The position numbers and the translations under genes were made by a program. A model generated the notes under the pieces. That model was not told the origin of the DNA. It saw nothing but the letters and a program-made list of their open reading frames with translations, and searched no databases. This document shows, piece after piece, positions 53,263 to 57,654 of a stretch of DNA of 64,000 bases. The DNA is from Bdellovibrio reynosensis (GTDB lineage Bacteria; Bdellovibrionota; Bdellovibrionia; Bdellovibrionales; Bdellovibrionaceae), in contig NZ_CP093442.1 in the NCBI RefSeq assembly GCF_022814725.1, positions 3,472,001 to 3,536,000 on the forward strand, written 5' to 3'. The first letter of the stretch is position 1; each line of letters starts with the position of its first letter.

Positions 53263-53607
53263 ATGGATTACTTCTTTTCCCCAGCTTCTTCAGAACACCA
53301 AAAGCGCGAAAAAGCCAAGGCTCGCGAATTACGCTTAAGCCAGTGGTGGAAGCAAGAGCTAGGAAAAGGACTTTGTTACCACTGTGGTTTGCGCTTTAAG
53401 CCGGCAGAACTAACAATGGACCATTTAATTCCCATCGCTCGCGGGGGAAAATCTAATAAAAATAACTGCGTTACGTCTTGCAAGGACTGCAATTCTAAAA
53501 AGGGTTATAAAACCCGGGCTGAAATGGCTTTAGAAGAATTAACCAGTTCAACGGCTGTCAGCGAAGATCCATTGACCACAGATAATAGCGAAGATTCAGG
53601 CGATTAA
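53263..53607 (+). CDS. HNH endonuclease-like protein
   Basis: 114 residues. CYHCG, then DHLIPIARGGKSNKNN (the HNH His and the second-part Asn) and CKDCNSKKG: a zinc-binding HNH module. The tail is disordered and acidic. It would cleave DNA in the cytoplasm; the role (repair, restriction or mobile element related) is not clear from context. There is no integrase or partner. It is a single gene, with its stop codon abutting that of the converging paralog gene. Confidence 0.85.
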   Translation: MDYFFSPASSEHQKREKAKARELRLSQWWKQELGKGLCYHCGLRFKPAELTMDHLIPIARGGKSNKNNCVTSCKDCNSKKGYKTRAEMALEELTSSTAVSEDPLTTDNSEDSGD

Positions 53608-54506: not shown

Positions 54507-56252
54507 GTGAGTAAGATTACTAAAAGTAGTACCGCTGAATATTTTGCGAAGAACCTGCAACAGGTGGGTTTTTCTTCGCCTTTAAAGGCCGTTTTAACGA
54601 CTTTAAAAGAGGCTGTGGACAACTCTTTAGATGCCTGTGAGCAGGCGGGAATTCTTCCTGACCTTTTAGTTGAAGTTTCTAAAGTAGGAACGGGTTCAAC
54701 CAAAAATACTGATTTAATTCGCATCGTTGTTGAAGATAACGGCCCTGGTATCGAAGGTGAAGACTTAGCGAAGGTTTACGGGGAGTATCTAGCTTCCTCT
54801 AAATTCGGTCGTGGTCAGTGTTCACGCGGTCAACAAGGTATCGGTATCTCTGCAGCAACTACTTGGGCACAAATGACCAATGCCCGCGGTGTAAACGTTG
54901 TTTCTAAGACTAAAAAGATGCGTAAAGCGATCTCGGCGCAAGTCGACGTCGATATCAAATCCAACACAGGTATTCTTAAAAACAAAGAGACTTTTGATTG
55001 GGATCGCGATCACGGAACTCGCGTTGAATTCGTTTTAGACGGCCGTATCCAGTTAAATGGTGACGGTGGTTTAGTGACTTATTTAGAAGGAACTATCCTT
55101 GTAAATCCGCACATGACCATCACTTACAAGTTGATGGAAAATGATTTCGTCACAGTGAATCGTGTTAGCCAAGAAGTGCCGCAAATTCCGGAAGCTTCTT
55201 TGCCACATCCTCATACGTTTAAACTCGGTGAGTTCATCACTCACTCGACTTTATTCGGTAAAATCAGCCTTTCTAAGTTCTTAAAAACGGGTTTTTCCCG
55301 TATTTCTGATCAATCTATCAGTGATTTTACTAAGCAAGGATTGCCAAAATCCCTGCTTGAAAAGCCAATCACTTCACTGAATGAAGATGATTTCAAAAAA
55401 GCGTTCATGGCGGTTCAAAATACTCAGCTTATGGCGCCTTCGACGAAGTCAGTTTTAACTGTGGGTGAGGAATCTTTATCCAAATCCATCACTCGTTTGG
55501 GTGAGATCGACTTCTTCGCTGTTGTGACTCGTAAACCGACTATTTGTGACTTTAAACCTGTTGTGGTTGAAGTTGCACTGGCCCGTTTTAAAGATCGCAA
55601 TCAAGAAGCAGATTCTCCAGTGACTTTACTTCGTTTTGCAAACCGTGTTCCTTTGCAATTTGATAAATCAGGTTGCGCGATCACGTGGGCGATTGAGTCT
55701 GTAAACTGGAAATCTTACGGTTTAGCACAACCGAAAGACAGCTTGCCACTAGGCCAATATGTCTTCGCGGTGTCTATCGTCAGTCCATTCATTAAGTTTA
55801 AAAATGCTTCTAAAGAAACAATCGATGCTTCTGAAGAGCTAGTAGCTGAAATTCGTCTAGCTTTGATCCAAGCGGGTCAAAAACTTTCTCGTCACATCAA
55901 AAAAGAAGTGAAAGAGGCAGATCTAGAAAGAAAACTAGCGCACATCGAACAATTCGGTCCAATCCTTGTTGAAGGTTTAGCAAGAATTATCAAAGCTCCG
56001 GATTCTCGTAAGAAAAAAGCCGAAGAAGGTTTAAGAAAACTTCTAGGCCGTGATTCTGAAGAGGCGATGGCAGATCTAGAAGCAGCGGAAACGAAGCTTT
56101 TAGAGCAGAAGAAACGTGAAAAGAAAAAAGGTATTGATCACGATGATATCGAAGAAGATGTCATTCGCAGTGAAGACCTGGTCGAAGAAGCCTCAGTTCC
56201 CCAAGGAACTAAGAAAACAACGACTAAAAAAACAACCGGTAAAAAGAAATAG
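54507..56252 (+). CDS. top6B: DNA topoisomerase VI subunit B (ATPase)
   Basis: 581 residues. GHKL ATPase: LKEAVDNSLDAC (residues about 33-44), VEDNGPGI (75-82) and SRGQQGIGISAA (106-117), with GEYLASSKFGRGQ in the ATP lid, as in archaeal Top6B. A transducer domain follows. The C-terminal 40 residues are Lys/Thr-rich and disordered. Top6B binds ATP and clamps DNA in an A2B2 type IIB topoisomerase that relaxes and decatenates DNA. The start is a GTG at 54507 with a GAAGG site. The A-subunit gene follows 12 bases after the stop. This enzyme is mainly archaeal and plant; bacterial occurrences are scattered. Confidence 0.96.
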   Translation: MSKITKSSTAEYFAKNLQQVGFSSPLKAVLTTLKEAVDNSLDACEQAGILPDLLVEVSKVGTGSTKNTDLIRIVVEDNGPGIEGEDLAKVYGEYLASSKFGRGQCSRGQQGIGISAATTWAQMTNARGVNVVSKTKKMRKAISAQVDVDIKSNTGILKNKETFDWDRDHGTRVEFVLDGRIQLNGDGGLVTYLEGTILVNPHMTITYKLMENDFVTVNRVSQEVPQIPEASLPHPHTFKLGEFITHSTLFGKISLSKFLKTGFSRISDQSISDFTKQGLPKSLLEKPITSLNEDDFKKAFMAVQNTQLMAPSTKSVLTVGEESLSKSITRLGEIDFFAVVTRKPTICDFKPVVVEVALARFKDRNQEADSPVTLLRFANRVPLQFDKSGCAITWAIESVNWKSYGLAQPKDSLPLGQYVFAVSIVSPFIKFKNASKETIDASEELVAEIRLALIQAGQKLSRHIKKEVKEADLERKLAHIEQFGPILVEGLARIIKAPDSRKKKAEEGLRKLLGRDSEEAMADLEAAETKLLEQKKREKKKGIDHDDIEEDVIRSEDLVEEASVPQGTKKTTTKKTTGKKK

Positions 56253-56264
56253 GCTGGTGTGTAG

Positions 56265-57428
56265 ATGGCAAAACTTTTAAGTATCCGTGAATTAAAAATT
56301 GATATCCCAAAAGAGGCCCGCATCTTGGCTGACAAGATGTTGAAGGACCTTGAAAACTCAAAACGCCCGGTTTTAGAAGCGGTAAAAACTTCTTTAGACA
56401 ACTCTCTTTATAACGCCAAAGTGGGTTACCTGACTCCTGGTGATAAAGTCGTTCGTACAGAGTTGAACGTGTCTTCGGTACAAAAGCTGGCGCGTGTGGT
56501 GTTCATGCTTGAAATCCTTTTGCGTAACATGGACATCGGTTCCGTGAATACAAAAAGGGAGTTGTACTATATCTGTAAGGGCTTGATTAAAGGGAACTCT
56601 CGTTTAAAGCCTTTGGATTTTGAAGATCAGCCAGAATCTGATGCGATCATCGATTTCATCGGCGATATGCTTGAAGTGTATCGTGAAGAATTAAACTGTT
56701 TTGCCAATGAACGTGGTGGACAGACTTATTCTCAACAATTGATCGTAACTGAAACGATGCCGGATGGTGATAAAGCCACTGTTGATCTTTCAACTTTAGG
56801 TACGGCTGCTTTCCAACCGAAAAACAGACCTCAAGCTTTGAAATTGAAAGCTAAAAAGAAAATCGATTTCTGCTTGATCGTGGAATCAGAAGGTACAGCA
56901 AATACGCTTGTGAGCATGGGTTTCACAAAACGTAACAACTGTATCCTAATGGGTGCCGGGGGCGTTCCATCAAATGGTGTTCGTGGATGGTGTAAACTGA
57001 TCCAAAACGAATTAGATGTGCCTTTGTACTTCTTCGGGGATCTGGATGCGTACACGATGCAAAATATCTATCGTACGTTGAAAGCGGGATCTGCAGCTTC
57101 TTTGGTAAGAAATGCCGATTTCTCTGCACCAGAAGTAAAATTCTTGGGCGTATTGCCTGAAGACGTTAAGAAATACGATTTGCCTCACTACAAAGTGAAA
57201 GAATCAGATCCAGCTGAAGCCCGCGCTTTGAAAAAAGCCAAGGATGCCTTAGAAAACGATCCGTTCTTCTTGGATAAAAAGAACAAAAACTTGGCGGATA
57301 TTTTGCGCTGGTTGATCAAAGAAAAAGTACGTTGCGAGCAACAGTCGTTCTTCTCAGTAGATCCTAACGATCCAATTAAGACTGAAAAGTTGATTCTTGA
57401 GAAGATCAAACGCGGAAGCTACGTTTAA
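56265..57428 (+). CDS. top6A: DNA topoisomerase VI subunit A (Spo11-like)
   Basis: 387 residues. The winged-helix part has NTKRELYYICKG, whose second Tyr (about residue 102) matches the catalytic tyrosine that attaches to DNA. The Toprim domain has the metal-binding Glu in DFCLIVESEG (about 207) and the Asp pair in YFFGDLDAYT (about 259 and 261). All catalytic elements are intact. It cuts DNA as the A subunit of A2B2 topoisomerase VI. It follows top6B by 12 bases, so both form one operon. A strong terminator lies 80 bases after the stop. Confidence 0.96.
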   Translation: MAKLLSIRELKIDIPKEARILADKMLKDLENSKRPVLEAVKTSLDNSLYNAKVGYLTPGDKVVRTELNVSSVQKLARVVFMLEILLRNMDIGSVNTKRELYYICKGLIKGNSRLKPLDFEDQPESDAIIDFIGDMLEVYREELNCFANERGGQTYSQQLIVTETMPDGDKATVDLSTLGTAAFQPKNRPQALKLKAKKKIDFCLIVESEGTANTLVSMGFTKRNNCILMGAGGVPSNGVRGWCKLIQNELDVPLYFFGDLDAYTMQNIYRTLKAGSAASLVRNADFSAPEVKFLGVLPEDVKKYDLPHYKVKESDPAEARALKKAKDALENDPFFLDKKNKNLADILRWLIKEKVRCEQQSFFSVDPNDPIKTEKLILEKIKRGSYV

Positions 57429-57507: not shown

Positions 57508-57532
57508 CAAAGGGGCCTCTAAGGCCCCTTTG
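57508..57532 (+). terminator. Intrinsic terminator of the topoisomerase VI operon
   Basis: Stem AAAGGGGCC / GGCCCCTTT with a TCTAA-like loop. The T-run is short (three T), so activity is moderately certain. The preceding 57430-57480 bases are GC-rich with small palindromes. Confidence 0.7.
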
Positions 57533-57654
57533 TCGTATCAATTACCTCTTATTTCGATTTGATCTCAAACCTATCCCACTTAAGCAGTTTTCGTCGAGCC
57601 CGGGTTGAATTTTCCCTCTGAAACTCTTATAAACAATCTTGAAAGCCAAAGCCG

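Follow-up and report, generated by a model that had tools for sequence, protein, structure and literature searches.

What does a complete DNA topoisomerase VI (topo VI) do in a Bdellovibrio cell? The presence of topo VI in bacteria has been called puzzling (PMC11302465), and the organism studied here is a genetically tractable predator with topo VI as its only type II topoisomerase besides gyrase. We analysed a 64,000-nt stretch of the Bdellovibrio reynosensis genome (the window), for which a sequence-only reading had reported an intact two-subunit topo VI and asked what it does beside gyrase and topo IV. Our results indicate a genuine topo VI that most likely holds the job of topo IV in a cell that has gyrase and lacks topo IV.

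By open reading frame analysis, top6B is followed by top6A on the forward strand, both intact and 12 nt apart (window positions 54507-57428; Table 1). Top6B scored 528 bits against the NCBIfam equivalog NF003218 (cut-off 274) and 381.8 against TIGR01052 (cut-off 380.7), and Top6A scored 468 bits against the equivalog NF003335 (cut-off 424), in line with the two whole subunits described earlier. Pfam searches found the transducer domain PF09239 (3.6e-46) as well as PF02518/PF13589 in Top6B, and the Toprim domain PF21180 (1.2e-38) and PF04406 (3.2e-13) in Top6A. The best PDB matches by sequence were likewise solved topo VI subunits, 2q2e_B for Top6B (7e-85) and 1d3y for Top6A (3e-36).

Alignments with archaeal and other bacterial enzymes further showed that the GHKL motifs, the catalytic tyrosine and the Toprim acidic residues named in the sequence-only reading are present and unchanged. 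In Top6B, E35, N39 and D77 are invariant, and RGQQGIG (residues 107-113) is invariant across the bacterial set and common to M. mazei. K436 aligns with the archaeal Top6B switch lysine, whose function we take it to share. In Top6A, R98, YY101-102, E207, D259 and D261 are all invariant; the second tyrosine of the pair, Y102, aligns with the catalytic tyrosine of M. jannaschii Top6A and is presumably the catalytic residue here. The B subunit thus combines a GHKL ATPase with a topo VI-B transducer, by profile score and by fold match, and the A subunit has the catalytic tyrosine, Toprim glutamate and DxD motif of its family.

An AlphaFold model of Top6B (pLDDT 78) had M. mazei and Saccharolobus Top6B as its top structure matches. 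About 500 columns aligned with Top6B chains, and helices 240-305 lay in the place expected for an H2TH domain between GHKL and transducer, which they may represent. The Top6A model was poor (pLDDT 66.8) and served as a fold check only; its sole significant PDB matches were Top6A chains. The last ∼40 residues of Top6B are predicted to be disordered, and neither sequence nor model contains an Ig-like C-terminal domain, which is likewise missing from the bacterial topo VI enzymes in PMC11302465. Judged from its sequence, the gene pair encodes a genuine type IIB topoisomerase of the A2B2 type, an ordinary member of the family, and we infer that it is enzymatically active and assembles as the heterotetramer typical of topo VI, an enzyme defined by ATP-dependent strand passage with 2-nt overhangs.

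Table 1. Positions of the features discussed in the text; numbers without a locus name refer to the window
Feature	Position	Strand	Remarks or basis
top6B, DNA topoisomerase VI subunit B	54507..56252	+	581 aa, GTG start
top6A, DNA topoisomerase VI subunit A	56265..57428	+	387 aa, ATG start
GHKL ATP-binding motifs of Top6B: KEAVDNSLDAC (E35, N39), DNGPG (D77), RGQQGIG (107-113)	54606..54845	+	alignment
Transducer lysine K436 of Top6B (NASKETI)	55812..55814	+	invariant alignment column
C-terminal tail of Top6B (residues ~541-581), charged, lysine-rich	56127..56249	+	sequence; pLDDT < 50 over 540-581
YY101-102 of Top6A (KRELYYICK), putative active-site tyrosine	56565..56570	+	invariant in alignment
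Toprim glutamate E207 of Top6A	56883..56885	+	invariant in alignment
Toprim DxD of Top6A (D259, D261; GDLDAY)	57039..57047	+	invariant in alignment
10-bp GC-rich hairpin CAAAGGGGCC-TCTAA-GGCCCCTTTG after top6A, possible terminator	57510..57535	+	sequence
Small HNH-nuclease gene	53263..53607	+	114 aa; PF14279/PF01844 match
Divergent type IIA pair of family f14	L060:1402-2844, L160:691-2838 (G008); also L055/L155, L059/L158
Topo VI loci of families f11/f15	L003-L007, L197-L199
Topo VI loci of f20/f23, nested in the order of the window	L177 (G061), L019 (G114)

Because the topo VI family is chiefly archaeal, the pair might stem from archaeal contamination or from misassembly. The genome, however, consists of one contig of 3,582,323 bases (3.58 Mb). 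A 16S primer for Bdellovibrio (PMC11350732) has two exact matches in it; this primer likewise matches genomes of the same family, and it has no match in four genomes from two other families. In addition, the base composition of the pair is ordinary for the region (GC 0.42 versus 0.435 for the window). Codon usage correlates with that of the neighbouring genes at 0.81 for top6B and 0.67 for top6A, inside the range of the neighbours among themselves (0.67-0.93), as had been described from the sequence. Furthermore, every genus member sampled has the same top6B-top6A pair, and the topo VI of this type forms one clade of 35 rows, all from the same phylum (support 100), that is separate from every archaeal and other bacterial sequence in the sample. 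The archaeal contig that the sequence-only reading had raised against itself is therefore not what we found; the chance of contamination is negligible, and a complete topo VI in a Bdellovibrio-type bacterium is supported. The expression signals agreed less well with the earlier description of normal ribosome sites and a terminator: the two genes are indeed adjacent, but the ribosome site preceding top6A is weak by eye, and the hairpin after top6A lacks a clear T-run and is not among the calls of the terminator scan.

Across the complete genome, protein-family searches of the contig (PF00521 and PF00204) identified a single homologue of GyrA/ParC next to a single homologue of GyrB/ParE. The sole PF00521 homologue carries the canonical GyrA box QKRGGKG and scored 1173.5 bits against the gyrA equivalog (cut-off 902). 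Because there is only this one homologue of each kind, with a GyrA box, and no second GyrA/ParC or GyrB/ParE homologue without one in the complete genome, we conclude that topo IV is absent, and the premise that topo VI works beside both gyrase and topo IV has to be dropped. The same combination, with gyrase and topo VI present and topo IV missing, has been reported for B. bacteriovorus (PMC11302465). Another study names Bd2864 topo VI, Bd2865 'Top II' and Bd0005 'Top IV' (PMC11318664); by analogy with the genome studied here, Bd2865 is probably Top6B and Bd0005 probably GyrA. The absence of topo IV also bears on a review's annotation-based statement that Bdellovibrio has this enzyme.

The mechanism of topo VI is established as closure of the Top6B clamp by ATP, cleavage by Top6A and passage of a second duplex. 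In the window's enzyme, ATP binding would shut the clamp around one DNA duplex, Top6A, by means of its tyrosine and the metal site of its Toprim domain, would cleave a second duplex, and one duplex would then go through the other. Topo VI would in this way unlink replicated sister chromosomes and relax excess supercoils, with gyrase supplying negative supercoils beside it. As the cell has no type II enzyme besides these two, topo VI is the obvious candidate for the decatenase of sister chromosomes, and we infer that it decatenates in the cell and is essential. In line with such a role, topo VI is called a preferential decatenase in the title of PMC8837201, and, according to unpublished data quoted in PMC11302465, the M. 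mazei enzyme can rescue a parE(ts) mutant of E. coli by complementation. In the literature we found no biochemical or genetic work on topo VI from any Bdellovibrio, and the word 'topoisomerase' is absent from the main text of published Tn-seq work (PMC6561027).

Globally, topo VI, scored by the topo VI-B transducer, was present in 124 out of 192 genomes of the phylum (≥85% complete), among them each of the 62 sampled from the order, and it occurs in most other families. Exactly one PF00521 gene was found in 120 of the 124 genomes with topo VI. In three of the four with more than one match (G191, G002 and G043), the matches belong to a single gene that is frameshifted or broken across contig ends. 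The remaining genome, G020, is a draft assembly with contamination of 5%, whose second type IIA set differs in GC content, and at most this one of the 124 may also hold a second type IIA set. The reverse was seen in family f14, where topo VI was detected in none of 57 genomes and a second PF00521 match in 55. The second type IIA pair of this family, examined in four genomes (each subunit in two to four of them), consists of a GyrB/ParE-like subunit of ∼700 aa adjoining a ParC-like subunit of ∼480 aa without a C-terminal domain. The pair of G008, the only one scored, was far below the NCBIfam cut-offs and possibly represents an unusual topo IV; it is likely that the f14 pair is the alternative holder of the decatenase role. 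Four topo VI-negative genomes (G039, G129, G152 and G164) are incomplete drafts from families that otherwise have topo VI.

Topo VI and an additional type IIA enzyme thus almost exclude each other, a strong association that fits replacement of one by the other, through few independent events. The GyrA tree requires a minimum of four state changes between the two, with its deep nodes unresolved, so that the exclusion does not amount to a test over numerous independent events.

The sequence-only reading had speculated that predatory growth as a filament with many chromosome copies explains the enzyme. A Bacteriovorax 16S primer matched eight genomes of the phylum sample, all in f14. Because this Bacteriovorax-containing family has a second type IIA enzyme in place of topo VI, and many other families of the phylum do have topo VI, predation by itself does not appear to explain its presence, although a demand for decatenation from many chromosome copies may exist in the filament. 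The same distribution bears on the alternative that topo VI is accessory, with gyrase decatenating and topo VI serving a special task such as the predatory multi-copy filament or DNA repair. In six sampled genomes (G003, G012 and G031 of f10, G018 and G025 of f17, and one of f8), both topo VI and a second type IIA set were missing, and gyrase alone may suffice there as the only type II topoisomerase; some Pseudomonadota and Terrabacteria, moreover, have topo VI alongside topo IV (PMC11302465); both observations would suit an accessory role. We nevertheless consider such a role unlikely, given that topo VI pervades the order and most families without tracking predation and is missing from precisely the large family that holds a second type IIA enzyme. 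Replacement of topo IV by topo VI remains our preferred reading.

We placed the enzyme in trees of bacterial and archaeal sequences (96 rows for Top6A, 122 for Top6B). The Bdellovibrio-type clade has a long stem, with 3.41 changes per site in Top6A and 1.84 in Top6B; long branches meet at the root of the Top6B tree, which makes the deep placement uncertain. Such stems would allow an altered function, for example subunits that no longer carry out strand passage and instead work as a regulated, Spo11-like DNA-breaking complex or a nuclease, and the linkage of an HNH-nuclease gene in the order could be read in the same way. This is very improbable, however, as the B subunit is whole, GHKL motifs, transducer and switch lysine are kept across families, and top6A and top6B are adjacent in every clade locus long enough to span both. 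As for the HNH gene, a homologue of ∼100 aa lies upstream of top6B on the same strand in families f1-f7, often <200 bases away, and is the most widespread top6B-linked neighbour outside the genus. It sits just upstream of top6B at loci L009, L010, L016, L183, L185, L196 and L200; in the window, a reverse-strand gene separates the two. The HNH nuclease is possibly an old operon partner of top6B.

In the same phylum, f11 and f15 have a different topo VI, with only 32-37% identity to the Bdellovibrio type, which groups with sequences from Gemmatimonadota, Acidobacteriota and Planctomycetota. It represents a separate acquisition, so that topo VI was gained at least twice in the phylum. Within the Bdellovibrio type, f20 and f23 are outside the order by taxonomy and GyrA, yet their topo VI is nested inside it. 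An AU test rejected the order as a single topo VI clade (p = 0.0005; the group tested was the taxonomic order, but the idea was prompted by the single-gene trees, which makes the value somewhat optimistic). Therefore, the two-gene cassette has been transferred within the phylum. No source outside the phylum was seen for the clade among the matches listed (best 80 loci, led by the f11/f15 type), and a closer relative outside the phylum may exist. Mobile carriage of the window's topo VI was rejected: there was no phage match, and plasmid matches were limited to haloarchaeal top6B at ∼33% identity. One IMG/VR contig of 482 kb (L233) encodes a Top6A 71% identical to that of the window; this contig is probably bacterial rather than viral. 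Tentatively, and with a good measure of doubt, the Bdellovibrio type can be pictured as a deeply diverged type IIB lineage that stably holds the topo IV role across most of the phylum and has spread between families as a two-gene cassette, possibly with a linked HNH nuclease.

For B. bacteriovorus, which by the 16S primer belongs to the same family or genus, topo VI is already published (PMC11302465, PMC11318664), as is the missing topo IV (PMC11302465), and as far as we found the phylum-wide pattern extends this work. What our analysis adds is the near-exclusion across the phylum, an isolated lineage with internal transfer, a second independent topo VI and evidence against a link to predation. 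The topo VI enzymes of M. mazei and Saccharolobus shibatae (PDB 2q2e, 9o0g, 2zbk) resemble that of the window in having two subunits with conserved catalytic residues, in the GHKL, middle helical and transducer regions of B and in the Tyr-containing and Toprim domains of A, at about 20-35% identity. M. mazei Top6B, in contrast, ends in an Ig-like domain, in place of which the window's Top6B has its lysine-rich tail. Topo VIII, also a type IIB enzyme and known from free and integrated plasmids (PMC11302465), was ruled out by two separate full-length chromosomal top6 genes that are vertically widespread in the order, and Spo11 or topo VI-like systems, in which the A subunit lacks a true topo VI-B, by the true top6B adjoining top6A. 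The f11/f15 enzymes share the B-A gene order and the lack of a second type IIA set but fall in the other clade. The divergent f14 pair is type IIA, unlike the type IIB enzyme of the window, and with relatives in its own phylum that use type IIA instead, the predator is well suited to experiments in which topo VI is swapped or depleted.
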